From a virus, in the IMG/VR virus record IMGVR_UViG_3300002143_000235, positions 124,001 to 188,000 of that record: a DNA stretch of 64,000 nt. One strand, given 5' to 3'. Under the pieces are notes generated by a model. The model did no database searches. It was not told the origin of the DNA and saw only the letters and a list, made by a program, of their open reading frames with translations. Shown here piece after piece: positions 4,447 to 62,349 of this stretch (the first letter of the stretch is position 1; every line of letters begins with the position of its first letter). Made by a program: the position numbers and the translations under genes.

Positions 4447-5724
4447 ATGGGAAAAGAGGTTAGACTTATCAAGGTTGATGGTGATGCGAACAATAATAAG
4501 TATTACAACATGGTCGAAAACGGTGATGGTACTTTCACTGCAACTTACGGACGTGTTGGAGCAGCTAAACCGCAGACCGATACTAAACCGATGTCGAAAT
4601 GGGATGCAACATATCGTGAAAAGACGAGTATCAAGAAAGGTTATGTCGATCAGACAGATCTATTCATTGATGAATCAGTAACGATTGATGTTGATGCATC
4701 AACAGGAACTAAAAAGAAATCAGTATTTAAAGATTTTCTTTCATCAAGATCAGCAGCAGTTGTACAAATGGTACGAGATCTTCAAGGTTGGGCAAAGGGA
4801 TCGGTAGAACGAAACTATACCGTAAGTTCTGAAGCTGTAACACAGAAGCAAGTTGACAAAGCACAGGAAACACTTGATCAAATTGTAGGTTTTCAATTAG
4901 ATGCTAACAACATTGCTGAGTTCAACAAACTCTTGCAGACGTTTTACAGTATTGTGCCTCGTAAGATGAAACATGTGAAAACACATCTTGTTGATCCTGA
5001 TTCTGATCTTACTGAACGTAAGAATGAAATCATTACGGAAGAACAGACAACACTCGACGTTATGGCAGGTCAGGTAAAATTGAATGCTGATATGAAAGAC
5101 AGTGATGTTGAAGAAGATCAGGAAGAAGTTGAAACTGACATTTTGAAATCATCTGGTCTTGATGTTATCGAAGTAACTGATGATGCTGTGATCAATAAGA
5201 TCAAAGGTCTGATGGCTGATAACTCACGAAAATTCCGTAAAGCATTTGAGGTTGTAAATACCAAAACACAATCAGCTTACGAGGGACAAATTAAGAAAGC
5301 CAAAAATCAAAAAGAAGAACTTTTCTGGCATGGTTCACGAAATGAAAATTGGTGGTCTATCCTTACAACCGGTTTACTTATTCGTCCATCCAATGCCGTT
5401 TATTCTGGTTCAATGTTTGGTGATGGTATCTACTTTGCAGACAAGTTTCAGAAGTCATTTGGATACACGTCAGGACGTGGTTCATACTGGGCTGGTGGAA
5501 ATGCCAATACAGCAATTTTAGCTCTTTACAATGTGCATGTGGGTGAACAAAAGATCATCAAACGCCATGATTCATCTTGCTACAAATTGTGTCATTCAAT
5601 CCTTGCAAAAGAGAACTGTGATTCTGTATTTGCACAAGGTGGAATTGATCTTCGTAACAATGAATACATTGTTTATCAATCACAACAAAATACAGTTAAG
5701 TATCTTGTAGTTGTTGAGGCATAA
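4447..5724 (+). CDS. poly(ADP-ribose) polymerase-like protein (WGR + helical + ART catalytic domain), 425 aa
   Basis: Domains in order: residues ~1-80 form a WGR-type domain (GDGTFTATYGRVGAA; Tyr replaces Trp of the name motif); ~90-190 are helical, like the PARP regulatory domain (WAKGSVERNY, then VTQKQVDKAQETLDQI); ~290-425 form the PARP catalytic domain. The H-Y-E triad of true polymerases is intact: His295 in FWHGSR, Tyr329 in GDGIYFADKF and Glu406 in NNEYIVYQ. The family transfers ADP-ribose from NAD+ to proteins or nucleic acids, often after sensing DNA ends through WGR. It may modify host proteins or DNA-repair factors during infection. It has its own promoter, a 12-bp repeat tract follows, and then a terminator. 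Related activities are encoded at 15.4, 19.8, 41.1 and 61.6 kb. Confidence 0.92.
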   Translation: MGKEVRLIKVDGDANNNKYYNMVENGDGTFTATYGRVGAAKPQTDTKPMSKWDATYREKTSIKKGYVDQTDLFIDESVTIDVDASTGTKKKSVFKDFLSSRSAAVVQMVRDLQGWAKGSVERNYTVSSEAVTQKQVDKAQETLDQIVGFQLDANNIAEFNKLLQTFYSIVPRKMKHVKTHLVDPDSDLTERKNEIITEEQTTLDVMAGQVKLNADMKDSDVEEDQEEVETDILKSSGLDVIEVTDDAVINKIKGLMADNSRKFRKAFEVVNTKTQSAYEGQIKKAKNQKEELFWHGSRNENWWSILTTGLLIRPSNAVYSGSMFGDGIYFADKFQKSFGYTSGRGSYWAGGNANTAILALYNVHVGEQKIIKRHDSSCYKLCHSILAKENCDSVFAQGGIDLRNNEYIVYQSQQNTVKYLVVVEA

Positions 5725-5730
5725 AAATAA

Positions 5731-5790
5731 TTTACTACTTTTACTACTACTTTTACTACTACTTTTACTACTACTTTTACTACTACTTTT
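5731..5790 (+). repeat. 12-bp tandem repeat (unit TTTTACTACTAC), about five copies
   Basis: Five near-perfect head-to-tail copies between the PARP stop codon and its terminator. Built from TAC triplets and T4 runs, with no coding role seen. Confidence 0.9.
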
Positions 5791-5791
5791 T

Positions 5792-5822
5792 AAAACCGGT
5801 GCGTTTCGTATCGGTTTTTTTA
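5792..5822 (+). terminator. Rho-independent terminator after the PARP gene
   Basis: Stem AAAACCGGTGCG/CGTATCGGTTTT with two G-U pairs, loop TTT, then T run. Confidence 0.8.
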
Positions 5823-5823
5823 T

Positions 5824-5850
5824 TATATTTGTATTGTTCAATTAATTATT
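5824..5850 (+). promoter_or_regulatory. promoter TATATTTG with conserved TATTGTTCAATTAAT leader
   Basis: -7 box at 5824-5831 overlapping the terminator T tract, followed by the same leader as at 2873 and 29980. Confidence 0.75.
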
Positions 5851-5853
5851 TAT

Positions 5854-6069
5854 ATGTCATTTACAGATTTTTTAGGAGCAGAGCTAAATGTTGGTGATGA
5901 GGTCGTTTTCATTTCCCGTGGATACAGAGACTTCAGTCGTGGAACTGTTGTTTCGTTTACACCACAAAAGGTTCGCATTGCACATATTCATCGCAATATA
6001 CCAGATTATGCAAAGTTACTTTTGCAAGATCCATATCAGTTAATCAAAGTACCCATTCAAACAAAATAA
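5854..6069 (+). CDS. small SH3/KOW-like protein, 71 aa
   Basis: Compact beta-rich protein with the pattern LNVGDEVVFISRGYRDFSRG followed by VVSFTPQKVRIAH, reminiscent of KOW/SH3-type barrels. I know similar small phage proteins of unknown function. It is the first gene of a tightly packed run to 8458 behind a strong early-type promoter, so it is probably expressed soon after infection. Confidence 0.65.
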   Translation: MSFTDFLGAELNVGDEVVFISRGYRDFSRGTVVSFTPQKVRIAHIHRNIPDYAKLLLQDPYQLIKVPIQTK

Positions 6070-6071
6070 TT

Positions 6072-6473
6072 ATGAAACTCTTTGGAAATAAAAATTCAAG
6101 TGTTGTAATCATCAACGGTAAGAAATATACTGGAAGTGGTGATATTCAGATTACCGATAATAAGATTCTAATCGGTGGAAAGGATGTGACAAAGGATCTT
6201 GAAAATTCACTCACTGTTACCATCGAGGTCCATGGTGATGCATCGATAGATGCTGATTGTTGTGAGAAAATCACGGTGAACGGAAATGCTGAAAGCGTTA
6301 AAACAATGTCAGGCAGTGTTCAATGTCAGAATGTTGCTGGTAGTATCAACACACAGTCAGGTGATGTTCGTTGTGGTGATGTCGGAAATGATGTAAAAAC
6401 AATGTCAGGTGATGTAACAGCTAAATCTATTATGGGTAAGGTGAGCACTATGTCAGGTGATATCAAACGTTAA
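6072..6473 (+). CDS. repeat protein with TMSGDV motifs, 133 aa
   Basis: The C-terminal half consists of imperfect ~16-residue repeats with KTMSGSVQ, NTQSGDVR, KTMSGDVT and STMSGDIK, each with glycine and valine spacing typical of a small beta-solenoid (polymer-forming or adhesin-like fold). The N-terminal half (VVIINGKKYTGSGDIQI) looks like a beta-sandwich. No signal peptide. Function unknown; proteins with these repeats are known from other phages and bacteria. Two nt after the preceding gene. Confidence 0.65.
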   Translation: MKLFGNKNSSVVIINGKKYTGSGDIQITDNKILIGGKDVTKDLENSLTVTIEVHGDASIDADCCEKITVNGNAESVKTMSGSVQCQNVAGSINTQSGDVRCGDVGNDVKTMSGDVTAKSIMGKVSTMSGDIKR

Positions 6474-15043: not shown

Positions 15044-15424
15044 ATGAATAACAAATATTGGTGGACGCCTGAAGAAAAGGGGCTTACACCAGAACAGATT
15101 GATATAAAAGTTGAAGAACTCTGGCAAAAAAGTCTTGCTGAAGTTACACATTGTTGTCCAGATTGTATTGTTAGTCCCGGTGAAGCTCATGAATTTCTGT
15201 GTGACGTTGCAAGATGTATGTCATGTAAAGGACAAGCATTAAGTTGTGGTTGTGAAGATATTGGTGAAGATATTTGGACTGGTTTATGGCCAGGAATTAA
15301 AGAGTGTTACGAATTAAAACTTATTTGTTGGTCTGATCCAAATCGTATTGGTGGAACAGATTGGACTTTTGATTTGAATACACTTGCTGAAATAAATGCT
15401 AGAAAGAAATGGACAAAAGATTAG
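15044..15424 (+). CDS. cysteine-rich, probably zinc-binding protein, 126 aa
   Basis: Contains CCPDC, then C-x8-C (EFLCDVARCMSCKG) and CGCED, giving enough Cys for a zinc knuckle. The N-terminus is helical (YWWTPEEKGLTPEQIDIKV) and the C-terminus carries several Trp. Not recognised further. Its last codons overlap the KptA start by 16 nt, so the two are co-translated and may work together on RNA; that link is inference. Confidence 0.65.
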   Translation: MNNKYWWTPEEKGLTPEQIDIKVEELWQKSLAEVTHCCPDCIVSPGEAHEFLCDVARCMSCKGQALSCGCEDIGEDIWTGLWPGIKECYELKLICWSDPNRIGGTDWTFDLNTLAEINARKKWTKD

Positions 15425-15951
15425 AACGAGTATCACGACATATGTCTAAATTACTTAGACATGATAGTGAAGGCCTTGTAATGGATAATGAAGGTTGGAT
15501 ACAGTGTAGTGATTTATGTAAGCATACAAACATTACATTAACAGAACTTCGTGATATTGTATCATCAAATGATAAGAAACGATTTGCATTTGATAAGTAT
15601 GAACAACGAATTCGTGCATCACAAGGTCACTCGAAAGGTATGAATATTGATATTACAATGCCATGTATAACACTAGTTCAACAAGATTTTCCAATATATC
15701 ATGGCACATCTATGTCTATTGCACAGAAAATTATAGGAACATCAATCCTACCAGGTGAACATATTTATGTACACTGAACAAAAAATCTTACTTTGGCATG
15801 GAAACGTGCTAGACAGCGTGATCGCGACAATCCAGCTCTGGTTGTTCTTGATGTAAAAAAATACCTAGCTGACGGAAATGTACTTTATATTTCTGAAAAT
15901 GAAGTGTATCATACAGGAGAAGTAGATGGAAAATATTTACGTATTGAATAA
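15409..15951 (+). pseudogene. kptA: KptA/Tpt1 RNA 2'-phosphotransferase interrupted by an in-frame TGA
   Basis: The Tpt1/KptA family removes an internal or terminal 2'-phosphate from RNA using NAD+, releasing ADP-ribose 1'',2''-cyclic phosphate. Family landmarks in order: RVSRHMSKLLRH (residues 6-17), EGWIQCSDL, YHGTSMSIAQKI and HIYVH. Then TGA (15775-15777), and in the same frame TKNLTLAWKRARQRDRDNPA, VVLDVKKYL, LYISENEVYHTGEV and a normal stop at 15951. The TGA falls where the family has HVHLS (a Leu position), one base from TTA. Total length (180 codons) matches the family. Either the gene is inactivated, TGA is read through, or there is a base error; no suppressor tRNA is seen in the window. 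Confidence 0.85.
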
Positions 15952-15962
15952 TTTTTTAATAA

Positions 15963-18759: not shown

Positions 18760-19053
18760 ATGGCACGATACAAATACAAATTGGATACAGACAAATTATC
18801 AGTAAGTTATAAAATTTTAGTGTTAGTGGTTGGTATTTTATTTATGGCTTCAATAATAACTGGTATTGGTGCGATTATAAGTATTGCCATATCAAGTCAA
18901 ATAACAAATTATTGGTGTATAGTATGTTTTTTTATATCATTATTTTATGTGATTTTAAGAGCAATATCAAAACCATTAATATTTGATACTGATGATGAAA
19001 TAAAAAAAGAATTTAGGAAGATAACTAAAGATGAAAAAGAGACTATATGTTGA
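18760..19053 (+). CDS. two-pass membrane protein, 97 aa
   Basis: Two hydrophobic segments (residues ~18-42 and ~50-68) with basic N-terminus and a charged C-terminal tail (DDEIKKEFRKITKDEKE). It lies 15 nt after the transglycosylase gene and its end overlaps the nucleotidase gene by 23 nt. A small membrane protein next to a cell-wall enzyme could be a holin, but holin families are not recognisable from sequence alone. Confidence 0.6.
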   Translation: MARYKYKLDTDKLSVSYKILVLVVGILFMASIITGIGAIISIAISSQITNYWCIVCFFISLFYVILRAISKPLIFDTDDEIKKEFRKITKDEKETIC

Positions 19054-19510
19054 TTTAGATGGTGTTTTATGTGATATTGCTGCACAACATGTTACATATA
19101 AAAAACTTTTCCCAACACAACCATATCCACAATCACAATATGGTTTTTTTAGTGGAATGCTTCCTATTAAAGATGGTGTTGAAACTGTCAAACAATTGAT
19201 GAAGTATTTTGATGTATGGATCTGTACTGCACCAAGTTGGAAAAATCCAATGTGTTTAGCAGAAAAAAATATGTGGATTAGACAACATTTTGGAATCGAT
19301 TTTTGTGAAAAAATTATTATTACATCAGATAAATCATTATGTATTGGTGATTATCTTATTGATGATAATCTTGAAGGTCGTGGACAGGATAGATTTATGG
19401 GTGAATTAATTCATTTTGGTTCACAAATTTTTTTTACGTGGCAAGATGTTTACAACTATCTAATTAAAAAAGAATCAATTAAATTTCCTATTTTACAGAT
19501 CAATGGCTGA
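19031..19510 (+). CDS. 5'(3')-deoxyribonucleotidase (NT5C-type HAD), 159 aa
   Basis: HAD motif I is LYVDLDGVLCDI at the N-terminus (nucleophile and acid/base Asp). It is followed by LPIKDGVETVKQL, motif II WICTAPSWKNP, a segment EKIIITSDKSL with the motif III Lys, and motif IV YLIDDN. This order and spacing match the phage and bacterial 5'(3')-deoxyribonucleotidases that dephosphorylate dNMPs, used in phages to balance nucleotide pools. It overlaps both neighbours, which points to co-translation with the DUF4326 and macrodomain genes. Confidence 0.85.
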   Translation: MKKRLYVDLDGVLCDIAAQHVTYKKLFPTQPYPQSQYGFFSGMLPIKDGVETVKQLMKYFDVWICTAPSWKNPMCLAEKNMWIRQHFGIDFCEKIIITSDKSLCIGDYLIDDNLEGRGQDRFMGELIHFGSQIFFTWQDVYNYLIKKESIKFPILQING

Positions 19511-24352: not shown

Positions 24353-24919
24353 ATGATAACAACTATAAATGAGTTTCGACAATATAGTTCTGGACATTTA
24401 GTAGATACTAATAAATTATTTCCTGAGGATAATATCTATGTTGGAAATTTAATTATAGTTGATGAGATGCACGATATGAAGATAACTATTACCACAGTGA
24501 CAGGTAATGTATTTATAGCGTCATCAACAATACCTAAATGGTGTAAAAACATTACCGTGAATGGTGACTTTAATGCTGGTAAAGGTATTATTTCTGTTGC
24601 AACTGAAGGATCTAATATTTTAAAGAATAAAGTAAGTTGGACAGGGTCAATTGATCTTCCAAATCTTATAAGTTTAGTTAATTGTCCAAAGATTATAAAT
24701 GGTGATTGTAATATAGTTGGTAATCTAAATATTGATTTAGAAAATGGACCAAAAGTTGTTACTGGTACATATGTAGTAAGTACTACAAAATCTGTTAAAT
24801 ATATTGAAAGGTACACAGAAGTGAGTAAAAATATCATAACACAGAATGATAATCACAGTGTACGTGATTCTAGAGATCGTTATCATAAACGAAAAGAACG
24901 CTATAAATTTTGGAAATAA
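24353..24919 (+). CDS. hypothetical protein with capsid-targeting-like N-terminus, 188 aa
   Basis: Begins MITTINEFRQY, close to MITTLNEW of the mART at 41095 and MITDFNQF at 43243; in T4, similar short N-termini direct internal proteins into the prohead. The body contains short strand repeats (NGDFNAGKGIISV, NGDCNIVGNLNI) typical of a small beta-solenoid, and a basic C-terminus (RDRYHKRKERYKFWK). It may be a capsid internal protein; this is inference. Follows the tail tube gene by 34 nt. Confidence 0.6.
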   Translation: MITTINEFRQYSSGHLVDTNKLFPEDNIYVGNLIIVDEMHDMKITITTVTGNVFIASSTIPKWCKNITVNGDFNAGKGIISVATEGSNILKNKVSWTGSIDLPNLISLVNCPKIINGDCNIVGNLNIDLENGPKVVTGTYVVSTTKSVKYIERYTEVSKNIITQNDNHSVRDSRDRYHKRKERYKFWK

Positions 24920-26215: not shown

Positions 26216-26301
26216 GGGCCGATGGTGGAATTGGTAGACACGTCGCGTTTAAGCCGCGATGCTCCGTAAGGGGCGTGTGGGTTCGACTCCCACTTGGCCT
26301 A
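26216..26301 (+). tRNA. tRNA-Leu (anticodon UAA)
   Basis: Class II tRNA, 86 nt: acceptor GGGCCGA/TTGGCCT, D-arm with GGTGGAATTGGTAGACAC, anticodon arm TCGCG-TTTAAGC-CGCGA, variable arm GCTCC-GTAA-GGGGC, T-arm GTGGG-TTCGACT-CCCAC, discriminator A. CCA is not encoded. Confidence 0.95.
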
Positions 26302-26421
26302 CACAAACACTAAACACCAATTACTGAAACAGAGTGTACAATCTGTGTAAAGAAATGTCGATAAAAAACAATACTGTGGTGCTTGGTATTGGAGACGGCG
26401 AAATTAAAGCGCTAAGATATT

Positions 26422-26501
26422 GTGAGTGAGAGAAGCTGGTCACTTGTTGTTCGTATGGGTTCAGAAACCAAAGATCATCGGTTCGAATCCGACACTCACT
26501 A
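26422..26501 (+). tRNA. atypical or degenerate tRNA-like gene (loop suggests CAG)
   Basis: A perfect 7-bp acceptor GTGAGTG/CACTCAC and a T-arm (TCGG-TTCGAAT-CCGA) are present. The D-arm is poor, and the best anticodon arm, around TTCAGAA, has only three good pairs. If functional the anticodon would be CAG (Leu codon CUG) without the usual class II variable arm. It may be a decaying tRNA. Confidence 0.45.
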
Positions 26502-26578
26502 CTAATTGAACGCTGTAAAGCAAACTGAAGTTCTGTGAATCAATTCATTTTAGAATTGAAAGAGTTAATAAGTAAATT

Positions 26579-26662
26579 GGCCGTGTGGTGGAATTGGTAG
26601 ACACGCCATCTTGAGGGGGTGGTGCTCGTAAGAGCGTGTGGGTTCGAATCCCACCATGGTCA
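26579..26662 (+). tRNA. tRNA-Leu (anticodon GAG)
   Basis: Class II, 84 nt: acceptor GGCCGTG/CATGGTC, D region GTGGAATTGGTAGACAC, anticodon arm CCATC-TTGAGGG-GGTGG, variable arm GCTC-GTAA-GAGC, T-arm GTGGG-TTCGAAT-CCCAC, discriminator A. Confidence 0.95.
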
Positions 26663-26737
26663 CTTCTGAGGATTTAGTATTTAACGTAGAGCTGGATCAA
26701 CGGTAAAATAACAAGTTGGATGAGAAGACAACAATTT

Positions 26738-26811
26738 AGTCGTATAGCTCAGTTGGTTAGAGCACCACACTGATAATGTGGGGGTCGCAAGTTCAAGTCT
26801 TGCTATGACTA
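26738..26811 (+). tRNA. tRNA-Ile (anticodon GAU)
   Basis: 74 nt: acceptor AGTCGTA/TATGACT, D-arm GCTC/GAGC, anticodon arm CCACA-CTGATAA-TGTGG, T-arm GCAAG-TTCAAGT-CTTGC, discriminator A. Confidence 0.95.
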
Positions 26812-27028
26812 CGAAATACCTGCTGAAGACGATCAGTAATGGATAAAGGGTGGAGCTGTTATATGATAAGCCATCTCGAATGGAGATGTGTAACGGAAGA
26901 CCACGACACTATAGTTTTAACCAGCAAAACGTTGGTCGTTGTAGGAAAAGAGACTGATTAAAAGCAAACTCACCGACCGGGAGATGAAAACAACTCTTGA
27001 TTCGCTGGAATGGACAGGTATTTTATTT
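26812..27028 (+). other. 217-nt spacer with hairpins, no gene seen
   Basis: Holds a hairpin CATCTC/GAGATG and another GTTTT/AAAAC with a 7-nt loop lacking U33, so not a normal anticodon arm. No ORF with support. Could be processed leader RNA or remains of tRNA genes. Confidence 0.35.
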
Positions 27029-27100
27029 AGGCGCGTAGTAGAACGGTTATCACGCATGACTGATAATCATGTAATGGGAGTTCGATTCTCCCCGTGCCTA
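27029..27100 (+). tRNA. second tRNA-Ile-type gene (anticodon GAU)
   Basis: 72 nt: acceptor AGGCGCG/CGTGCCT, weak D-arm with AACGGTTA loop, anticodon arm CATGA-CTGATAA-TCATG, T-arm GGGAG-TTCGATT-CTCCC, discriminator A. The body differs strongly from the first tRNA-Ile, so it is not a recent duplicate. Confidence 0.85.
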
Positions 27101-27219
27101 CACTAAAGATGGTTGACCACATAATAGCATTGTGTTAAAAATTGGGATAAGATGTCACCCAGTAGGAAGGAAAGTCTAGCAACGAAACCTGCTTAGTATT
27201 TGAAACGTAAATACAAACT

Positions 27220-27267
27220 GCTCGTGTGGTGGAATTGGTAGACACACAAAATACTTGTGTGTCTACC
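27220..27267 (+). pseudogene. 5' fragment of a tRNA-Leu gene ending in an inverted repeat
   Basis: The first ~26 nt share CGTGTGGTGGAATTGGTAGA and the following CAC with the intact tRNA-Leu(GAG). Instead of an anticodon arm, GGTAGACACACAA is followed five bases later by its exact reverse complement (27255-27267). No matching 3' half (CACGAGC) was found. The HNH gene begins 32 nt on, suggesting the tRNA was broken by HNH insertion. Confidence 0.75.
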
Positions 27268-27298
27268 AAACTTCTTAAAAAACATATGTATATTATAC

Positions 27299-27754
27299 AT
27301 GTGGAGCAGGAATTATATTACAGATGAACAAATAATAGAAGCAGTTAAATTATCTAAAACAATGAGCGAAGCTGCAGCTATTGTTAAATTAAAATTTGAA
27401 ACATTTAAACGTAGAGCACAACATTTAGATATTTATAAACCAAATCAATATCGGAAAGGAATTAAACGTTCTGAAAGTGAATTTGAAAAACAAACAATAC
27501 CACTTGAAGAAATATTGAATGGAAAACACCCATCTTATAATACATCAAGATTACGAAAACGATTAATTAAAGCAGGATTAAAAGAAAATAAATGTGAAGA
27601 AAAAGATTGTACTGTTTCAGATTGGAAAGGTAAATCATTAACATGTGAACTTCATCATATTGATGGTGATAGAACAAATCACAAGTTAAATAATTTACAA
27701 ATAATTTGTCCAAATTGTCATAGCCAAACTGATAGTTTTGCACGAAGAAAATAA
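27299..27754 (+). CDS. HNH homing-type endonuclease, 151 aa
   Basis: C-terminal HNH domain: CEEKDC as first zinc pair, LTCELHHIDGDRTNHKLNNL as the HNH core (His-His, Asn), and ICPNCHSQTDSF as the second zinc pair. The N-terminal half (EQIIEAVKLSKTMSEAAAIV) resembles a helix-turn-helix for DNA recognition. Start at 27299 in preference to 27257, which lies inside the tRNA remnant inverted repeat. It is inserted between a broken tRNA-Leu and an intact tRNA, 3 nt before the latter, a location typical of mobile HNH genes. Confidence 0.9.
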   Translation: MWSRNYITDEQIIEAVKLSKTMSEAAAIVKLKFETFKRRAQHLDIYKPNQYRKGIKRSESEFEKQTIPLEEILNGKHPSYNTSRLRKRLIKAGLKENKCEEKDCTVSDWKGKSLTCELHHIDGDRTNHKLNNLQIICPNCHSQTDSFARRK

Positions 27755-27757
27755 TAT

Positions 27758-27831
27758 AGCTACATAGCCCAATTGGAAGAGGCAATAGATTTAGAATCTA
27801 TATAGTGTGGGTTCGAGTCCCACTGTGGCTA
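27758..27831 (+). tRNA. tRNA with anticodon UAG (Leu codon CUA), class I body
   Basis: 74 nt: acceptor AGCTACA/TGTGGCT, D-arm GCCC...AGGC, anticodon arm ATAGA-TTTAGAA-TCTAT, 5-nt variable loop ATAGT, T-arm GTGGG-TTCGAGT-CCCAC, discriminator A. The anticodon is that of Leu, but bacterial tRNA-Leu normally has a long variable arm, so its aminoacylation identity is open. Confidence 0.85.
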
Positions 27832-27969
27832 CAACGGCAGGTGAGATGTATTATTCTCTGAAAAGTTAGACTGCAACAGACTGTTGAGAAGCAGTGGCAT
27901 TGTTGGTGTTAGCCCAACTAGGGAAAAGTCCCCGAATGAGAGTTCCTTTCACGCTGGTGGTAAACGTGT

Positions 27970-28054
27970 TTTATGTAAAAGCGATCAGTTTGACTGAGTA
28001 TAAAAACGTCTAGCACAGTTGAAAGATAAGACGTTCTAATTGTTTTTACATAAA
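27970..28054 (+). ncRNA. candidate structured RNA (three-way junction)
   Basis: Closing stem TTTATGTAAAA (27970-27980) pairs perfectly with TTTTACATAAA (28044-28054). Inside lie hairpin CAGT-TTG-ACTG (27986-27996) and hairpin AACGTCT/AGACGTT (28005-28035). Upstream (27900-27925) is GGGA-AAAG-TCCC. No ORF. It may be part of a larger RNA starting near 27840. Confidence 0.45.
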
Positions 28055-28059
28055 TAAAT

Positions 28060-28136
28060 GCTTCGTTATACCCTCATGCTTATACCATGTAGAAAGGTTA
28101 GTCTGGTTCACGTTGGTTCAAATCCAACACGAAGTA
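28060..28136 (+). tRNA. tRNA-like sequence, probably degenerate
   Basis: Acceptor GCTTCGT/ACGAAGT and T-arm GTTGG-TTCAAAT-CCAAC are well formed over 77 nt, discriminator A. The D- and anticodon arms do not fold normally; the only U33-type loop is CATG-CTTATAC-CATG. Confidence 0.4.
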
Positions 28137-28146
28137 CAAGCATAAA

Positions 28147-28171
28147 GATGGTTCGACTCCATCCAGGCCTA
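28147..28171 (+). pseudogene. orphan tRNA T-arm and 3' acceptor strand
   Basis: GATGG-TTCGACT-CCATC followed by CAGGCCT and A, a normal tRNA 3' end, but no matching 5' half (AGGCCTG or wobble form with a proper body) is found upstream. Confidence 0.45.
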
Positions 28172-28188
28172 CAAATAAAGAATTGAAA

Positions 28189-28326
28189 ATGAATAAGAAA
28201 TTGATACAACGAATTGAAGAAATCTTCGAACAAAAGTTACAATCGAAGACAGGTTGGGGTCGCAACGAGATCCTGGCACTTCACAAAGAAGCAGTTAATG
28301 AAGCTCTTTTAGAGTTAATTGACTAA
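28189..28326 (+). CDS. small hypothetical protein, 45 aa
   Basis: Charged helical peptide (MNKKLIQRIEEIFEQKLQ, then GRNEILALHKEAVNEALLEL). The coding pattern looks genuine and it starts near GAAA after the tRNA-like sequence. It ends 4 nt before the tRNA-Thr gene. Not recognised. Confidence 0.55.
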   Translation: MNKKLIQRIEEIFEQKLQSKTGWGRNEILALHKEAVNEALLELID

Positions 28327-28330
28327 AAAT

Positions 28331-28402
28331 GCTGGAATAGTATAATGGTTATTATATCTGTTTTGTAATCAGGTGATCACAGTTCGATCCTGTGTTCCAG
28401 CT
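28331..28402 (+). tRNA. tRNA-Thr (anticodon UGU)
   Basis: 72 nt: acceptor GCTGGAA/TTCCAGC, anticodon arm with loop TTTGTAA (stem TCTG/CAGG with a mismatch at the loop), T-arm CACAG-TTCGATC-CTGTG, discriminator T. Confidence 0.85.
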
Positions 28403-28454
28403 CTGATATGCCACGTAAGCCTCTACAAGTATGCTCAAACCGCGGACGTTAGGT

Positions 28455-28525
28455 AATCTGTCTGAGGTACCAGAGGACAGATTGAAAAGATACGGAGTTG
28501 TGAATCTCGAGGGCTAAAATCACAA
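28455..28525 (+). other. two spacer hairpins between tRNA-Thr and tRNA-Cys
   Basis: AATCTGTC/GACAGATT (28455-28483) and TTGTGA/TCACAA (28498-28525). Possibly processing signals or remains of tRNAs. Confidence 0.4.
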
Positions 28526-28528
28526 ACT

Positions 28529-28600
28529 GCCGGAATGGTCGAGCGATTAGGCGTCTCCCTGCAAAGGAGAATCACGGGGGTTTGAATCCCTCTTCCGGCT
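28529..28600 (+). tRNA. tRNA-Cys (anticodon GCA)
   Basis: 72 nt: acceptor GCCGGAA/TTCCGGC, anticodon arm TCTCC-CTGCAAA-GGAGA, T-arm GGGGG-TTTGAAT-CCCTC, discriminator U, the CysRS identity base. Confidence 0.95.
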
Positions 28601-28615
28601 CAATAAATTTAAAAT

Positions 28616-28765
28616 ATGTCAATATTATCAATCATTCTCATCTGTTTAGGTGTTTACGCTGTAATCGGATTAATTGTAGGACTTGTTACAAAGAGTGTTG
28701 CAAACGGTTTTCTCTGGGGTGTTGAATTGATTGGTGAGTTATTTGAAAATATTGATTTCGATTAA
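28616..28765 (+). CDS. small membrane protein, 49 aa
   Basis: One hydrophobic segment (LSIILICLGVYAVIGLIVGL, residues ~3-22), then a short soluble tail ending ENIDFD. Sits exactly between two tRNA-Cys genes. Not recognised; coding support comes from regular spacing and composition. Confidence 0.55.
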   Translation: MSILSIILICLGVYAVIGLIVGLVTKSVANGFLWGVELIGELFENIDFD

Positions 28766-28769
28766 AAAT

Positions 28770-28841
28770 GTTGGTGTGTCCGAATAGTTATGGTACTGGT
28801 CTGCAAAACCAGTTAAGTAGGCGCAAGTCCTACCACCAACT
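28770..28841 (+). tRNA. second tRNA-Cys (anticodon GCA)
   Basis: 72 nt: acceptor GTTGGTG/CACCAAC, anticodon arm CTGGT-CTGCAAA-ACCAG, T-arm GTAGG-CGCAAGT-CCTAC, discriminator U. T-loop begins CGC rather than TTC. Confidence 0.85.
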
Positions 28842-28855
28842 CAAATAAATTAAGA

Positions 28856-29023
28856 ATGGTACTTTACATTATTTTAGCAGCACTCATTTACATCATTATA
28901 AGCGTGATAGTTTATTTCATTATGCAAAATGAAGAATCTGATAAGAAATGGTTATGGACAATCTTTTGGCCGATTGCACTTGGATTTGAGCTTTTAGCAA
29001 ATAGTATGTGGTTTTTCTTCTGA
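28856..29023 (+). CDS. small membrane protein, 55 aa
   Basis: Two hydrophobic stretches (residues ~2-22 and ~33-55) around a charged centre (QNEESDKKW). Stop overlaps the next start by one base (TGATG), indicating coupling to the HAD protein. Not recognised. Confidence 0.6.
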   Translation: MVLYIILAALIYIIISVIVYFIMQNEESDKKWLWTIFWPIALGFELLANSMWFFF

Positions 29024-29433
29024 TGAGATACATTTTTACAGATATTGATGGAGTTCTTCAGATAAAGAATCCTAAAAAGTGGGATAAGAAGTGTTGTGCT
29101 TTGTATAATAAGCTTTGTAACGAGCTTGATTTGAAAGCTGTTATAACTTCTACTTGGAGAGTACGATACAGTGTTAGAGAGCTTCAAAACATCTTTTATG
29201 ATCAAGGTATTGATGTAGAAATTGTTGGTGTAACTGATGTATTAGGAATTGATCGTGGTGAAGAAATCTTGAACTACATTCGAGATAACAGTGTAAGTGA
29301 ATATGTTGTGATCGATGATAATGTTAGAGACATAATACCATTTGTAAATAATGTTGTAGGTATCGATAAATCATATATTGGACTTACAGAAGAAAATTGT
29401 AAAGAAATTAAAAAAATATTTAGTAATGATTGA
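29023..29433 (+). CDS. HAD domain of the Swiss-Army-Knife RNA repair type, 136 aa
   Basis: Motif I IFTDIDGVLQI at the very N-terminus, motif II VITSTWRV (S/T-x-W-R, characteristic of the HAD_SAK group), and YVVIDDNVRDI as motif IV. HAD_SAK domains occur alone in phages and as part of multi-domain RNA repair proteins, acting as phosphatases on RNA ends. Its place inside the tRNA cluster, together with KptA and a CCA enzyme, fits tRNA end repair, though that is inference. Start at 29023 by stop-start overlap. Confidence 0.75.
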   Translation: MRYIFTDIDGVLQIKNPKKWDKKCCALYNKLCNELDLKAVITSTWRVRYSVRELQNIFYDQGIDVEIVGVTDVLGIDRGEEILNYIRDNSVSEYVVIDDNVRDIIPFVNNVVGIDKSYIGLTEENCKEIKKIFSND

Positions 29434-29635
29434 ACATAATGGAAAAATTTATGTCGAAGTACGTAGAATCAAGAAGTCAACATTTGAGACAGGTCTTGAA
29501 GGTGTAAAAAAATATATGGAGCACATTAAGGCTGAACATGTATTACAAGATGCTGAGTATTTCATCTTTGTTAATTTTGTTGATGATGTAGAATTTGAAA
29601 TGGTTGAAGAACCAGTTGTCGATGAGACAGCATAA
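29426..29635 (+). CDS. hypothetical protein, 69 aa
   Basis: Starts inside the end of the HAD gene (8-nt overlap). Beta-alpha-beta-like small protein (GKIYVEVRRIKKSTFET, AEYFIFVNFVDDVEFE) with acidic tail. Not recognised; followed by tRNA-Met 9 nt later. Confidence 0.6.
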   Translation: MIEHNGKIYVEVRRIKKSTFETGLEGVKKYMEHIKAEHVLQDAEYFIFVNFVDDVEFEMVEEPVVDETA

Positions 29636-29644
29636 AATAAATAT

Positions 29645-29715
29645 GGCAATATAGTTCAAGGGTAGAACGGTGGAATCATAACCCACTAATTTCAGTTCGA
29701 GTCTGAATATTGCTA
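29645..29715 (+). tRNA. tRNA with anticodon CAU (Met, or Ile2 if modified)
   Basis: 71 nt: acceptor GGCAATA/TATTGCT, D-arm GTTC/GAAC, anticodon arm GTGGA-ATCATAA-CCCAC (A-C at the loop), T-arm TTCAG-TTCGAGT-CTGAA, discriminator A. Lacks the initiator-type G-C run. Confidence 0.85.
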
Positions 29716-29797
29716 CTTTGACTTTTTAGTGAAACAGATTTCATATAACTGGTCTAAAGGAAGAAAAAATTAAATTAAAATTAATACCTGTGTATCA

Positions 29798-31455: not shown

Positions 31456-31477
31456 TGTTTAATTGAAATATTATACC

Positions 31478-31485
31478 TATATTTA
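31478..31485 (+). promoter_or_regulatory. -7 box TATATTTA, 4 nt from the ATG
   Basis: TATATTTA followed by CAGT and the ATG at 31490; expected transcript is almost leaderless. Confidence 0.5.
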
Positions 31486-31489
31486 CAGT

Positions 31490-32614
31490 ATGAAAATTCT
31501 ATCAAAAGAACAAGCATCGACAAAATTGAAAGGTATTTTACCTGTAGACATTCAGATTCTAGCAAACGCATTTCAGCTTGCTAGTTTTGATTTGTTCTTG
31601 GTTGGTGGTTGTATACGTGATGCATTTATGGACAAAGCACCAAAAGATTTCGATGTTTGTACAAATGCAATGCCTGAGCAAGTAATGGAAATTCTTAAAG
31701 CAAATGCAATTAACTTCCAACTTCAAGGTGAAGCATTTGGTGTTGTTGTTGCGAGAATGTCTGAGGATATAGAAATTGCCACATTTCGCACGGATATTTC
31801 AGGAGGAACTGGTAAAAATTCAGACGATAGTGTTGTATTAGGGGTTACTATTGAAGAAGACGTTGCACGACGTGATCTTACGATAAATGCACTCTTTATG
31901 AATTTGCAGACTGGTGAGATTATTGATCTTGTTGGTGGTATTGATGATTTAAATAATGGTATCGTTCGAACTGTTGGACATCCATCTGAACGTTTTGCAG
32001 AAGACAATCTTCGTAAATTACGTGCTGTTGTTAGAACTGTTAAAACAAATTTTCAATTTGAAGAAAATACTTTTAATTCTATTAAAAATGATCCATCTCT
32101 AAATGTGTCAAAAGAAAGAATCATTATAGAATTATTTAAAATAGATTTCAATTTTGATATTTTACATGATTTATTATTTTCAAGTAATTTAATTTTTGAA
32201 ATTTTACCTGATCTTGATATTACTAATGATACAAATAAACCGATTATATCATTGGATTCAATGTTTGCTATTATTCTTCAAAATGAAAATCTAAAGAATT
32301 TAAATAATAAATTAAACAATTTAAATTTTCCTTGCACATTATCTAATAATATTTGTTTTTTAATTAAATCTATGAAAACTGATTTAACTGAAATTAATCC
32401 CTTTCACTTTTCAAAGGATCGCAAAAAAACAAAATTAACAGTTGATGAATTAATTTTATTTTTTGATAATGATCAAAACATTATTGAATTAATAAATTTT
32501 AAAATAAAACCAGAATTGTCTCAAGAATTAATGGATCAAGGTTTTAAAGGAAAAGATTTAGGTTTGGCTATTGAATTATTTTGTTTTGAGAATCGCACAA
32601 ATATTTTGAAATAA
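31490..32614 (+). CDS. CCA-adding tRNA nucleotidyltransferase, 374 aa
   Basis: Class II nucleotidyltransferase: GG motif LVGGCIRDAFMDKAPKDFDV (Asp-x-Asp catalytic pair with DFDV), IATFRTDI, VARRDLTINALFMN and ERFAEDNLRKLRAV follow in the usual order. The C-terminal half is helical and more divergent. The enzyme adds CCA to tRNA 3' ends. All intact tRNAs in the window lack an encoded CCA, so this gene makes the phage array self-sufficient, and it could repair tRNAs damaged by host nucleases. Start at 31490 follows the promoter; 31463 would lie upstream of it. Confidence 0.9.
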   Translation: MKILSKEQASTKLKGILPVDIQILANAFQLASFDLFLVGGCIRDAFMDKAPKDFDVCTNAMPEQVMEILKANAINFQLQGEAFGVVVARMSEDIEIATFRTDISGGTGKNSDDSVVLGVTIEEDVARRDLTINALFMNLQTGEIIDLVGGIDDLNNGIVRTVGHPSERFAEDNLRKLRAVVRTVKTNFQFEENTFNSIKNDPSLNVSKERIIIELFKIDFNFDILHDLLFSSNLIFEILPDLDITNDTNKPIISLDSMFAIILQNENLKNLNNKLNNLNFPCTLSNNICFLIKSMKTDLTEINPFHFSKDRKKTKLTVDELILFFDNDQNIIELINFKIKPELSQELMDQGFKGKDLGLAIELFCFENRTNILK

Positions 32615-42389: not shown

Positions 42390-42785
42390 TCAATTTGGAA
42401 TCAACACAGGCTCTGTTTCTAATGTTTGTAAATCATGATTTATAAACTGTGACGGTATGATATCAATTCCTAGACGTTTGGCACTATTGATAATAAAAAT
42501 TAAAAGAAGTGTACCACCAGGTAAAGGGTTAAGTGCTATAACACCCAAACCAACAAGTTTAAGTGTATCTCTTACAATAATTTTTAATTGTTGTGCTTCT
42601 TCTTTTGTCAGTTCACCTGTACGAATATAATCAGCTATAATTTCACGTGCACTATCATTAAATGCAAATTGTTTTTTAAGCTTTGCAAAAAAAATATTGA
42701 ATTGTTTCTTATATTTAGTTAACAAATCGCCAGCCCAACCTTCAGAAATATATTCTATATTTTTTTTAGTGCGTATATTTTTCAT
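42390..42785 (-). CDS. hypothetical protein with hydrophobic segment, 131 aa
   Basis: Basic N-terminus, a helical middle (TKYKKQFNIFFAKLKKQFAF) and a hydrophobic stretch at ~75-105 (LKLVGLGVIALNPLPGGTLL) with P-x-P-G-G as in some membrane-associated or LETM1-like helices. Its start overlaps the preceding gene by four bases. Its N-terminus (KKNIEYISEG) is loosely similar to capsid-targeting-like starts. Function unknown. Confidence 0.55.
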   Translation of the reverse strand: MKNIRTKKNIEYISEGWAGDLLTKYKKQFNIFFAKLKKQFAFNDSAREIIADYIRTGELTKEEAQQLKIIVRDTLKLVGLGVIALNPLPGGTLLLIFIINSAKRLGIDIIPSQFINHDLQTLETEPVLIPN

Positions 42786-43243
42786 TCTTCAGATGTGTTA
42801 TCAAGTGTTTTATCTGGTCCAACACCTTCAGGATCAATTGTAAGGTTTAGTCTTTTTGTATAATAAATACCATCACCAGTCTTCACATTCTTCTTTGGTT
42901 TCTCTTCAGCATGAGATTGTTCATTCGACTCAAACGTACATGTTGCTGCTAGGTTTGGAAATCTACTACATACAAGTTGTGTTACATGTTCAACATTAAT
43001 GTCTGAACCTAATTCAATATCTATTGCTCTACCGTTTCCAGGAGGCTTAACAAGTGCTGCATATTCACTACCACGTTTAATTACATCTACATAGTAATTA
43101 CTAGGTAACTTCTCTTGTAATGCATTTTTAAGTATTAAAGATGCATCTATGTTTATGTTAGAACTCTTTGGCTTAATAATATTAAGACTACCCAAACTAT
43201 TGAGAGAATTTTCATTTATGAATTGATTAAAATCTGTTATCAT
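42782..43243 (-). CDS. hypothetical protein with capsid-targeting-like N-terminus, 153 aa
   Basis: Begins MITDFNQFINENSLN, the third example of an MIT-x-x-N-x-F/W start followed by Glu. The remaining sequence holds a small beta domain (YYVDVIKRGSEYAALVKPPG) and an Asp/Pro-rich C-terminus. A late-type ATATA motif lies upstream on the same strand. A packaged internal protein is a reasonable guess. Confidence 0.6.
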   Translation of the reverse strand: MITDFNQFINENSLNSLGSLNIIKPKSSNINIDASLILKNALQEKLPSNYYVDVIKRGSEYAALVKPPGNGRAIDIELGSDINVEHVTQLVCSRFPNLAATCTFESNEQSHAEEKPKKNVKTGDGIYYTKRLNLTIDPEGVGPDKTLDNTSEE

Positions 43244-50720: not shown

Positions 50721-52382
50721 ATGGACAAGAGTCTCAAATTTTTTTTAGGAATTGACAAAGCTCCAGTCAATCGTGATACAAAGACAAATACTGGTTTGTC
50801 TACACAGACTGTAGAAGGTGATGTGATTATAAATTACTTTGATCCAGCAGATCCAACTCGTACAATTACGCGTACGGAAAAGAAACCATACAAATACGAT
50901 GCGCTTGCATCTGAACAAAATCCAGGTCAATTTATTTCATACCTTGGTAATTCTGCTCAAAATGATGTTCAGCCATTTGCTATTAACCCAGAAAATCAAT
51001 CAGATATAGATTTAGAATCTATTATAATTTGGTCACAACAAAATTATCCAAGTATGGCACTTCATCCAAAACATATTGCATACTTGGATAAATTTAGAAC
51101 AATGCCAGCCAACCGTTTCATTGTATTAAGACGATTCAAAGGTCCTTGTAGACACAATCTTTTTGCTGCTAAAAAATCAAAACCAATGTCAACTATGGTT
51201 GGTTATTACGATTTTGAAAATATGCCAATGAAGATATCATTTAACGAGAAATGGAAACAGTTTGATACAACATTTATGTCTATTATTCAGGATGTTGTAG
51301 GTATTCAATTCGATACTATTCCAGGTGTAGGTGCTCTTTTTTCTAAAGCAGCAACTTCACCACTTGGTCAAGATCTTTTATATCTTGTTGGTCAACGTCT
51401 TGGTTTTATTACTCCAGGAGATATGCCTTATGGTGATCCAAACCTTATTCATGATGCAGCAATGCGTGATGTTTCTGGTGAAACTTTATCAACAGGTCTT
51501 GAATCAGAAATTACTGTAGATTTTGAAACAACTTATGTAATGCGCGAAATTTTAGGTATTGATGGTAAAGCTGCCATGCTTGATATTCTTGCAAATATAA
51601 CAACAATGGCAACAGGTAAAGCGCGTTTTGTATCTGGTAATATTGGGCCACTTAATTCACTTCTTAAGTCACTTGAATCCGGAAGTATTGAGGGTATTGT
51701 TAATTCATTTAAAGAAGCTTTGATGGCTGTTGTAAATAGTTTAAGTGATAAAGAAAAAACTACTAAAGAAGAAGCAGCAAAAGCATCAGATCGATCTCTA
51801 GCACAAAAGGGTGTTGATAACGCATTTTCACCACTCGATCAGTTTCTTGCTCAAGGTAAAGAAGTTGTATCACAAGTTATTCGTAATAGGTATTCAAGAT
51901 ACAAATGGAAATTACGTGGAGCAGTTGGTGCAATGACTGGAGCACCAACTGCTCCTTGGCATATATCTATTGGTAATCCAAAATTTCCATGGTTTGTATG
52001 TGGTAACATGGTATTAGAATCATGTGAACTTATTCCAGAAGGAGAACTTGGATACAACGATATGTTTGATAGATTAACTGTGAAAATAAAACTACGTTCA
52101 GGTCGTGTTATGGGTGGTGAAGAAATTGAAACATTATTTAATGCTGGAACTGGTAGAATTTATGATACACCTGAAAAAGTTATTCAATATGTTGTACCAG
52201 AGGGAACAACAGTTAATGTACCAAATGATGGCGGTGATATTACATTTACACAAGGATCTAAAGAAGATATTACAAATGCACCAGTTACACCTGAATCATT
52301 AAATCAATTACCAGATGGTGCAGCAACAAATTTTTCAATTAACAACGTAACTGAACCAGTTGGTCCACCAATAGCACCATAA
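50721..52382 (+). CDS. baseplate tail tube initiator-like protein (gp48/gp54-like), 553 aa
   Basis: The C-terminal third (PTAPWHISIGNPKFPWFVCG, ESCELIPEGELGYNDMF, VKIKLRSGRVMGGEEIETLF, GRIYDTPE) resembles the tube-fold end of T4 gp48/gp54, which seeds tail tube polymerisation on the hub. The middle is helical and Ala/Lys-rich. A Pro/Asn-rich tail follows. Strong late-type motif upstream. Assignment by pattern and position between wedge and hub genes. Confidence 0.5.
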   Translation: MDKSLKFFLGIDKAPVNRDTKTNTGLSTQTVEGDVIINYFDPADPTRTITRTEKKPYKYDALASEQNPGQFISYLGNSAQNDVQPFAINPENQSDIDLESIIIWSQQNYPSMALHPKHIAYLDKFRTMPANRFIVLRRFKGPCRHNLFAAKKSKPMSTMVGYYDFENMPMKISFNEKWKQFDTTFMSIIQDVVGIQFDTIPGVGALFSKAATSPLGQDLLYLVGQRLGFITPGDMPYGDPNLIHDAAMRDVSGETLSTGLESEITVDFETTYVMREILGIDGKAAMLDILANITTMATGKARFVSGNIGPLNSLLKSLESGSIEGIVNSFKEALMAVVNSLSDKEKTTKEEAAKASDRSLAQKGVDNAFSPLDQFLAQGKEVVSQVIRNRYSRYKWKLRGAVGAMTGAPTAPWHISIGNPKFPWFVCGNMVLESCELIPEGELGYNDMFDRLTVKIKLRSGRVMGGEEIETLFNAGTGRIYDTPEKVIQYVVPEGTTVNVPNDGGDITFTQGSKEDITNAPVTPESLNQLPDGAATNFSINNVTEPVGPPIAP

Positions 52383-60370: not shown

Positions 60371-60383
60371 AATTTTAATAACA

Positions 60384-60391
60384 CAAAGATA
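60384..60391 (-). promoter_or_regulatory. -7 box TATCTTTG (minus strand)
   Basis: CAAAGATA on the plus strand, 13 nt before the 187-aa gene. Confidence 0.55.
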
Positions 60392-60412
60392 AAAGAAAAA
60401 ATGATATATTTA

Positions 60413-61108
60413 TTAAATCATTGGAATTTTTATTGGAGTATTGACATATTTATCAATATTCTTATTCATATACGTATTTAAAACTAATACATCATCATTT
60501 GCTAGTTTATCTATAAATGTCTTCACATAATCTTTTGCATTATTAATACAACATTCAAGATAAACATTGTGTATATTTTTGGTGTATTGTGGATAATATG
60601 ATGGACCATCTATAATTGGACATTGTTTAATAAATGTTTCAGCATATTTTTCAGCTTCGTATTCATGAATAAAATCAGGTCGTGTGTCATCAAGATGTTG
60701 ACACATATAATGACCTATTTCATGAAGCCATGTCCAAACATCCATAAGTTTTGTTATCTCTGGTAAAATAATATAGATTTTACCAAATTCAAATTTATTA
60801 CTTAAATGTTGATATATTTCTCGATTTAAATGTTTAGCATTAAAATGTTTAAAATATTTTGAATTCTGCCTAAAAATTATACCACCACATGTATTTGGAG
60901 CAATATAAACATTATCAAGATCAAATCCTGAATCAAGTAAACAGGCTTCAGCAAATTCTTTATAAACTTCAACTTGTGCCTGTTTTATAATTTCAACACT
61001 TTTATCATGCTGTTTATAAGCTTTGTATTTTTGTATTAATTGTATAAAAGCTAATACAAGTGTACAAGAGCCAATAAAAAACATTAAGAATATCAATAAT
61101 GTAAACAT
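60413..61108 (-). CDS. membrane-anchored HExxH zinc metalloprotease-like protein, 231 aa
   Basis: N-terminal hydrophobic segment (residues ~1-24, LIFLMFFIGSCTLVLAFIQL) acts as anchor. The zinc motif is TWLHEIGHYMCQH at ~123-135, with a likely third ligand in EYEAEKYAETF ~18 residues on, as in gluzincin-type peptidases. The target is unknown; exclusion of competing phages or host envelope changes are possible roles, both inferred. Confidence 0.75.
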   Translation of the reverse strand: MFTLLIFLMFFIGSCTLVLAFIQLIQKYKAYKQHDKSVEIIKQAQVEVYKEFAEACLLDSGFDLDNVYIAPNTCGGIIFRQNSKYFKHFNAKHLNREIYQHLSNKFEFGKIYIILPEITKLMDVWTWLHEIGHYMCQHLDDTRPDFIHEYEAEKYAETFIKQCPIIDGPSYYPQYTKNIHNVYLECCINNAKDYVKTFIDKLANDDVLVLNTYMNKNIDKYVNTPIKIPMI

Positions 61109-61116
61109 ATTAAAAA

Positions 61117-61569
61117 TTATTGGTAGATAGCTTTAAATATTCCAATGTACTTATTTTTGTCCATAACTGCACCATTCATTTTAATGACTTTCATATCATC
61201 AACACGGTCGCAGATTCGGTCACATACAATTCGATTTGAAAATTTATAATCAAAATCAGTTGGATTCCAATCATTATATAAATCATCTGGTAGATTATGG
61301 AACATGTCATCAGTCATAGTAACTGCAACATTTCGTGTAATTAATTCGTTTCGTAGTTCGTTGAAACGATCATGTAGAAATTTTAGCTTGTCATAAAAGA
61401 ATACAACATGTCCTGTACCTAATCTAAATTGAATTGGTTGATCAACTTTACGAACACGATCTGGATTGGATCGTACAGCATTTGGTATTCGAACTATCTC
61501 ACGGTATTCAGCCATCAGATGTTGATCACATAAATGTGCTGGTCGTATCTTTGCGTTTATTCTTGTCAT
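61117..61569 (-). CDS. denV: endonuclease V-type pyrimidine dimer DNA glycosylase (DenV), 150 aa
   Basis: N-terminus MTRINAKIRPAHLCDQHLMA followed by EYREIVR is nearly collinear with T4 DenV (MTRINLT..., DQHLMAEYRE). The catalytic Thr2 (N-terminal after Met removal) and Glu24 are conserved, as is LGTGHVVFFYDKLKFL and the closing YIGIFKAIYQ. DenV excises one base of a UV-made pyrimidine dimer and nicks the abasic site. Length 150 against 138 aa. A TATATTTG promoter lies upstream. Confidence 0.92.
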   Translation of the reverse strand: MTRINAKIRPAHLCDQHLMAEYREIVRIPNAVRSNPDRVRKVDQPIQFRLGTGHVVFFYDKLKFLHDRFNELRNELITRNVAVTMTDDMFHNLPDDLYNDWNPTDFDYKFSNRIVCDRICDRVDDMKVIKMNGAVMDKNKYIGIFKAIYQ

Positions 61570-61602
61570 GTTTTATATTTGTATAACAATTAATAATGAA
61601 AA

Positions 61603-61610
61603 CAAATATA
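61603..61610 (-). promoter_or_regulatory. -7 box TATATTTG (minus strand) before denV
   Basis: CAAATATA on the plus strand, 33 nt before the denV start. A plus-strand TATATTTG at 61574 lies opposite but leads into no gene. Confidence 0.6.
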
Positions 61611-61629
61611 AGAAAAAAATCGATATTGA

Positions 61630-62349
61630 TTATTTGTTTAACATTTTATTAAAAGCTAATAAAACTGTAAGCTGATAGTGATCAAGTTTACTTTCTACAT
61701 ATGCTGCATCGACTTTAGTAATTCCGCCATATCTAAAGTTCAATAATTCACCAACAATAGATGCGTTTGTATCAGTATCACCACCACACTCTATAGCTCG
61801 AATGATTCCTTCTTGTGGTGTTGAACATTGTGCAGCAAGATTCAAACAAAATTTTACTGTATCATCAGCACGTACTTTGAATTTTTTAAACGGTTTAACT
61901 TGAGCAAGCCGTTTGTTGTATTGCTCAGTATAAGCTAAATACAATTTGTAAACAGCTTCGTATGATACGGTGTGTTTATGTGATCCACGAAGTGTGTCAA
62001 AAAGTTGTGGAAGTGGATCTTGAATGTACATCAATGGACTTACACGCATCAAACAACCATTTCCAAATGAATCAACAACATCAAGACCATCACCAGTTAA
62101 CCAAGCTTTGAATCCTTTTCCATAGTGATCACCATTGTACAGATTTCCCCATCTGTGATAATTTTCAGTAAAATCAAATCCAAGCATCATTGCTTCAGCT
62201 GTTGCGAGTGTCATGATTGTGTCATCAGTGATAACTGAATTGGGATTATGTAAATTTACATTTGTATAATCACCTCTCATCGAAGGAAATTCAAATGGTT
62301 GACCAACAAGATCTCCTAGAATTGCACCGTATAATTTATATTTTGTCAT
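61630..62349 (-). CDS. ADP-ribosylglycohydrolase (ARH/DraG family), 239 aa
   Basis: Two-metal-site motifs are conserved: GAILGDLVGQPFEF (residues 8-21), ITDDTIMTLATAEAM with Asp42-Asp43-Thr44, and near residue 190 the motif ECGGDTDTNASIVGELLN that binds the second Mg. Family members remove ADP-ribose from Arg (DraG), Ser (ARH3) or thymidine/PAR derivatives. It may reverse marks made by the phage PARP or mART, or by host defence toxins. The gene is co-transcribed with two small genes and overlaps the next by four bases. Confidence 0.9.
   Translation of the reverse strand: MTKYKLYGAILGDLVGQPFEFPSMRGDYTNVNLHNPNSVITDDTIMTLATAEAMMLGFDFTENYHRWGNLYNGDHYGKGFKAWLTGDGLDVVDSFGNGCLMRVSPLMYIQDPLPQLFDTLRGSHKHTVSYEAVYKLYLAYTEQYNKRLAQVKPFKKFKVRADDTVKFCLNLAAQCSTPQEGIIRAIECGGDTDTNASIVGELLNFRYGGITKVDAAYVESKLDHYQLTVLLAFNKMLNK

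Follow-up and report, generated by a model that had tools for sequence, protein, structure and literature searches.

Six genes of ADP-ribose and NAD+ metabolism lie in a 64,000-nucleotide stretch of virus DNA (bases 124001-188000 of the 313,708-bp virus record IMGVR_UViG_3300002143_000235, hereafter the window). They encode a WGR-PARP, the RNA phosphotransferase KptA (Tpt1), a DUF4326 protein, a macrodomain protein, an ART-PolyVal ADP-ribosyltransferase-like protein (ART), and an ADP-ribosylglycohydrolase (ARH). The genes are genuine, and the reading that fits them best, to which we assign a probability of about 0.6, is one of three functional modules within a single phage. In the first module, the WGR-PARP would sense DNA ends or nicks through its WGR domain and ADP-ribosylate itself or nearby proteins, and ARH would take off the mark. 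In the second, the product of KptA would be processed by a 2H-like enzyme, macrodomains, and DUF4326, with a HAD-family RNA-repair protein, a CCA-adding enzyme, and the phage tRNAs belonging to the same context. In the third, the ART, encoded in the late region of sigma-factor and baseplate genes, may be a virion component that is injected. The first-pass annotation of the window had proposed these six families, and profile searches place five of the proteins above Pfam cut-offs and the sixth in phrog_2072; activities, substrates, timing, virion packaging, and cooperation we infer as set out below.

The WGR-PARP scores 80.0 bits against the PARP profile PF00644 (cut-off 26.7) and 26.0 bits against the WGR profile PF05406 (cut-off 22), belongs to phrog_23333 (194 bits), and finds PARP1/2/3 as its matches among PDB sequences. 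The catalytic H-Y-E triad, already described as intact in the earlier annotation, consists of H295, Y329, and E406 and is invariant across nine phage PARPs, and the WGR domain bears the signature Y34-G35-R36. Sensing of DNA ends and nicks through WGR domains is known for PARP1-3 and for bacterial PARPs. The PARP_reg helical domain (PF02877) reaches 14.3 bits, under its cut-off of 26.8, and phmmer aligns this part of the protein to PARP1; PARPs of Cytophagales are likewise without a PARP_reg match in Pfam, yet their corresponding region models as helical (PMC5966428). Genes near that of the phage PARP include a clamp-like gene at 2 kb and a calcineurin-type (SbcD/gp47-like) nuclease gene at 3.7 kb.

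The case for a role of this protein at DNA breaks comes from the surroundings of PARP genes in other phages. A DNA ligase gene lies within 5 kb of the WGR-PARP gene in 34 of 80 viral loci (20 NAD-dependent and 14 ATP-dependent), in all 34 on the PARP strand, compared with 3 of 80 phage macrodomain loci and 1 of 64 bacterial PARP loci. When PARPs are clustered at 70% identity, a ligase is present in 13 of 39 clusters (p = 3e-5 against the macrodomain control); the control loci are limited and have shorter flanks, and after length normalization the value is p = 4e-5. A PF01661 macrodomain gene adjoins PARP in 24 of the 80 viral loci, with a median gap of 13 bp, and a NADAR gene stands beside it in 12. 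As a separate observation, a 210-kb virus contig has its PARP gene about 0.5 kb from a macrodomain gene of the phrog_2072 type, on the same strand (L193:954-3348).

Co-occurrence of PARP and ARH beyond chance in large phages is also supported. ARH was found in 10 of 28 other WGR-PARP-bearing virus contigs of at least 100 kb and in none of 20 core-gene relatives without PARP (Fisher p = 0.002), near duplicates and matches to the PARP catalytic domain only having been removed. With lineages collapsed, the figures become 6/19 and 0/20 (p = 0.008) at comparable contig sizes, and at least seven changes of ARH presence are required on the PARP tree. ARH is present in about 5% of jumbo phages according to the text of a published survey (PMC9503650), and many phages hold it without PARP, so the link is a tendency and no rule. 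In one genome, LR756511, genes for PARP, an ATP-dependent ligase, and ARH follow one another in that order on one strand within about 7 kb, the gap between PARP and ARH being 4.2 kb. KptA shows a weaker, non-significant tendency to accompany PARP (3/28 versus 0/20). Microbial PARG was considered as an eraser and rejected, with no instance among the 28 PARP-bearing contigs. The ARH of the present phage scores 77.9 bits against PF03747 (ADP_ribosyl_GH; cut-off 26.2) and retains the dinuclear metal motifs TDDT (41-44) and GGDTDT (189-194), which upholds its earlier family assignment.

Because phage PARPs adjoin ligases, macrodomains, and NADARs and co-occur with ARH, the first module likely handles strand breaks in phage DNA, and the ligase neighbors in particular favor DNA repair over host modification or counter-defense. 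We tentatively suggest, at rather less than even odds, that large phages own a PARP strand-break response in which a WGR-PARP detects breaks in phage DNA during its replication and the resulting ADP-ribose signal is tied to a phage ligase and reversed by a macrodomain, ARH, or NADAR. Both the PARP-ARH co-occurrence and the PARP-ligase-macrodomain neighborhood in phages are new here; in the text of two surveys of jumbo-phage NAD+ and ADP-ribose genes, as far as it is covered together with part of their figures and supplements, a link of phage PARPs to ligase or macrodomain neighbors or to ARH is not stated (PMC9503650, PMC7824862).

The second module occupies a separate block. DUF4326 scores 84.3 bits against PF14216 (cut-off 25), and the protein encoded directly after it, for which no Pfam match was found, belongs to phrog_2072 (106.7 bits). 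An AlphaFold2 model of the latter, built with 35 relatives, has a mean predicted local distance difference test (pLDDT) score of 90.9, and its top Foldseek matches are nearly all macrodomains (TARG1 at TMq 0.64 and DarG at 0.53-0.57, with probability 1.00), so that the macrodomain fold suspected from the first reading of this gene pair is now predicted from structure. Lys62, invariant in 36 homologs, may correspond to the catalytic lysine of TARG1 and DarG, and the family profile returned only noise against PDB sequences. The order kptA, clpP-like gene, NT5C nucleotidase, DUF4326, macrodomain, and CCA-adding enzyme is preserved in a 29.5-kb relative (G056) that runs colinearly with the window from 12.2 to 32.6 kb, these genes sharing 45-73% identity. 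In the available text of the same literature, the product of KptA is handled by 2H and macrodomain enzymes, and DUF4326 is proposed to strip phosphates from ADP-ribose derivatives (PMC9503650). Since 2H and macrodomain enzymes process the KptA product, kptA, DUF4326, and the macrodomain gene fit RNA repair with clearance of its by-products and, judged by gene content, NAD-dependent tRNA repair. Not among the genes of the first-pass annotation are two that lie close together elsewhere in the genome, one coding for another macrodomain protein and the other for a 2H-like phosphoesterase (Table 1).

The macrodomain and DUF4326 genes also bear on a rival explanation, that macrodomains, DUF4326, and ARH degrade the ADP-ribose signals or adducts of NAD-based host immunity (TIR-type or DarT), the other genes being unrelated. 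Such counter-defense has been proposed for phage macrodomain and DUF4326 proteins in the consulted part of the literature (PMC9503650), the predicted macrodomain fold is near those of DarG and TARG1, and the DUF4326 and macrodomain genes overlap here, while a viral protein of about 1037 residues (L183:265-3378) joins the two domains. The conserved neighbors of the pair in this phage are, however, genes of RNA repair and nucleotide metabolism, and we consider counter-defense unlikely as the explanation of the set, though it may hold for the macrodomain and DUF4326 proteins.

Several points weigh against the modular reading. The PARP-ligase-macrodomain linkage is derived from other phages and not from this genome: the PARP gene has neither a ligase nor a PF01661 macrodomain neighbor in the window and the 18 kb before it, and the ARH gene is 56 kb away; of the proposed set, this phage has the writer together with an eraser encoded far off. 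The macrodomain and ligase profiles were trained on PARP loci, and counts in the control loci are perhaps too low; the relatives without PARP that serve as controls for ARH are one lineage, and most of the records compared are fragments. The ARH reads SHKH where most relatives carry TH.H..EG and is without part of a helical stretch in comparison with 14 other aligned phage sequences, and because the TH motif and part of this stretch are lost, its activity appears doubtful. The Foldseek E-values of the macrodomain model range from 0.004 to 0.06 (best 0.0036), all above 0.001, so that the support is at the level of fold and is no proof of activity. T4-type RNA ligase (PF09511), the one ligase family searched for in this context, is absent from every KptA-bearing record tested and never occurs together with KptA in any of 16 records; the RNA-repair pathway is therefore incomplete as seen, and this ligase was dropped as a candidate partner of KptA. 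Lastly, kptA is itself ended by an in-frame TGA at 15775-15777, after 122 of about 180 residues.

That interruption had been recognized from the start, and the family assignment holds with it (86.2 bits against the PTS_2-RNA/KptA profile PF01885, cut-off 26). Past the TGA, the only one in the whole-frame match, the frame stays open and homologous to its natural end. A full-length catalytic KptA domain is thus not encoded in this assembly but is encoded in IMGVR_UViG_3300002138_000147 (169 kb), a sister strain of the same phage with 98.6-99.97% identity at shared loci outside kptA; kptA is uninterrupted in several other virus records as well. Between about 15500 and 15960 the gene diverges from that of the sister by up to 32% per 100 bp, and because this sharply bounded segment sits between near-identical flanks, it looks like an allele exchange within kptA between strains. 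Throughout kptA, and also past the stop, the per-site rate of non-synonymous change lies well under the synonymous one, so that the premature TGA either arose recently, was introduced by the assembly, or is read through. No suppressor tRNA for TGA recoding was seen in the window, and an in-frame TGA occurs in one gene only. Taken together, the allele exchange and the nonsense change would mean that the RNA-repair branch evolves fast between strains of one phage.

The third module is the ART, which scores 51.9 bits against the ART-PolyVal profile PF18760 (cut-off 31.2) and so falls in the ADP-ribosyltransferase group to which it was first referred. Of the ART catalytic motif it retains His22, the second and third positions are unlike those of the homologs in pT24, and a single-sequence model is poor (pLDDT 32.6). 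The gene is flanked by a sigma-factor gene on one side and baseplate genes on the other, in the late or tail region, and a tblastn search against phages gave no match. Its N-terminus, MITTLNEW, resembles MITTINEF at 24353 and MYTTINEW at genome position 267952 (L393:3953), and the motif M.TT[IL]NE[FW] occurs at these three places only, in any frame, in the two stretches read; speculatively, the common N-terminus could be a head-targeting or cleavage signal. The protein at 42782-43243 on the minus strand, which begins MITDFNQFINEN, was noted beside these starts. In another side observation, a small protein at genome 267573-267911 (L393:3574-3912) has a start, YHIT...NI..I...GI, reminiscent of ADP-ribosyltransferases and is without a Pfam or PHROG match.

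With all three modules in view, the coordination suggested by the first-pass annotation can be weighed: one regulated ADP-ribosylation programme in which PARP and ART modify macromolecules of the phage or its host, with the macrodomain as reader and ARH as eraser of the marks. The presence of writers and erasers in one genome stands, and PARP and ARH co-occur across several phage lineages, as PARP and macrodomain genes adjoin each other elsewhere in phages. The genes here nevertheless stand in differing neighborhoods separated by as much as 57 kb, the substrates of KptA are the 2'-phosphate ends of RNA, KptA is interrupted and ARH altered, and of 21 related records tested for the ART only pT24, itself without PARP, ARH, and KptA, has it, so that a single programme seems improbable. 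Least probable is the absence of any functional link, with common auxiliary genes piling up in a large genome and coincidence following genome size: DUF4326 does occur in about 2,000 of 50,697 phage records, but the PARP-ARH co-occurrence exceeds that of size-matched relatives, PARP is linked to ligase and macrodomain genes, and the kptA-DUF4326-macrodomain order is conserved.

The three modules belong to a large, contractile-tailed phage. The window encodes a tail-tube-like protein, baseplate wedge and hub proteins, a sigma factor, a primase, and a tmRNA in addition to nine tRNAs; for the remainder of the record, the analysis drew on family searches and selected stretches. The nearest kin of the PARP are encoded on chromosomes of Cytophagales and Saprospiraceae, which makes a Bacteroidota host likely. 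The baseplate protein at 50721-52382 is closest to those of uncultured huge phages and of Tenacibaculum, Chryseobacterium, Flavobacterium, Prevotella, and Sphingomonas phages. Scans of viral contigs with single ART, ARH, baseplate, and ClpP queries returned the same phage or near fragments only. The protein at 39605 gave a Ku-like match (E 0.011, below cut-off) that was taken as chance. Near the end of the window lies a gene of the R2K-clade ATP-grasp family, which is reported from jumbo phages and nucleocytoplasmic large DNA viruses as a likely protein-modifying factor in the available text of an earlier survey (PMC7824862).

Table 1. Positions of the genes and segments discussed; coordinates refer to the window unless marked as genome.
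Feature	Position	Strand	Family or remark
WGR-PARP, 425 aa	4447..5724	+	PF00644, PF05406, phrog_23333
kptA (Tpt1)	15409..15777	+	PF01885; homologous frame runs on to 15951
kptA segment strongly diverged from sister strain	15500..15960	+	comparison with sister strain
NT5C-type deoxyribonucleotidase	19031..19510	+	PF06941, 54 bits; overlaps DUF4326 gene
DUF4326 protein, 101 aa	19503..19808	+	PF14216, phrog_464
Macrodomain protein (predicted fold), 147 aa	19805..20248	+	phrog_2072; overlaps DUF4326 gene
Array of nine tRNA genes	26216..29716	+	ARAGORN, Rfam
HAD domain, Swiss Army Knife RNA-repair type	29008..29433	+	PF18143, 68.5 bits; inside tRNA array
CCA-adding/poly(A) polymerase-type nucleotidyltransferase	31463..32614	+	PF01743, 118 bits
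ART-PolyVal ADP-ribosyltransferase-like protein, 171 aa	41095..41610	+	PF18760; 4-base overlap with preceding 497-aa gene
ARH, short, 239 aa	61630..62349	-	PF03747
R2K-clade ATP-grasp peptide ligase	63254-64000	-	PF14243, 78.6 bits
Second macrodomain gene	genome 270782-271435		outside window
2H-like phosphoesterase gene	genome 272205-272693		0.8 kb from second macrodomain gene

Jumbo phages with several NAD or ADP-ribose genes are already established, and the parts consulted of the papers on their NAD+-ADP-ribose network describe ART, PARP, KptA, macrodomain, ARH, and DUF4326 proteins, often several to a genome (Iyer et al., 2022, PMC9503650; 2021, PMC7824862). Those parts class phage PARPs with host-modifying ARTs, whereas a role at DNA breaks appears more likely here. 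LR756500.1, a 462-kb uncultured huge phage with a near twin of 429 kb (IMGVR_UViG_3300025030_000039), shares PARP (40% identity), ARH, KptA, and DUF4326 with the present phage; it differs in having NADAR and an uninterrupted KptA, in a PARP-ARH distance of about 13 kb rather than 56 kb, and in that ART-PolyVal and a phrog_2072 macrodomain were not detected in it. As to DarTG and DarT-NADAR systems, the partner NADAR was not found in the present record, and DarT had no match among the scanned window genes, which were the extent of that search.

The chromosomal WGR-PARPs of Cytophagales (clade 1, PMC5966428) are alike in their WGR and catalytic domains, probably in a helical region, in the H-Y-E triad, and in the tyrosine of the WGR signature, at up to about 50% identity. 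They differ in their surroundings, with the single ligase neighbor counted above and one ARH among the 64 loci, in a Cytophagales genome whose ARH gene is divergently adjacent to the WGR-PARP gene (L227:4011-5942). Compared with the eukaryotic PARP1/2/3 of single-strand-break repair, neither zinc fingers nor a scaffold protein was identified here, and the PARP of this phage has no ligase beside it. It shares with them the WGR and ART domains and probably the helical one, and the association of DNA ligase, macrodomain, and ARH in phages recalls the eukaryotic break-repair set. If the proposed strand-break response is correct, it would parallel, in viruses, the single-strand-break repair of eukaryotes, and the current assumption that host proteins are what phage PARPs modify would change: ADP-ribose break signaling would not be just a device of cellular repair but one that phages have assembled repeatedly.

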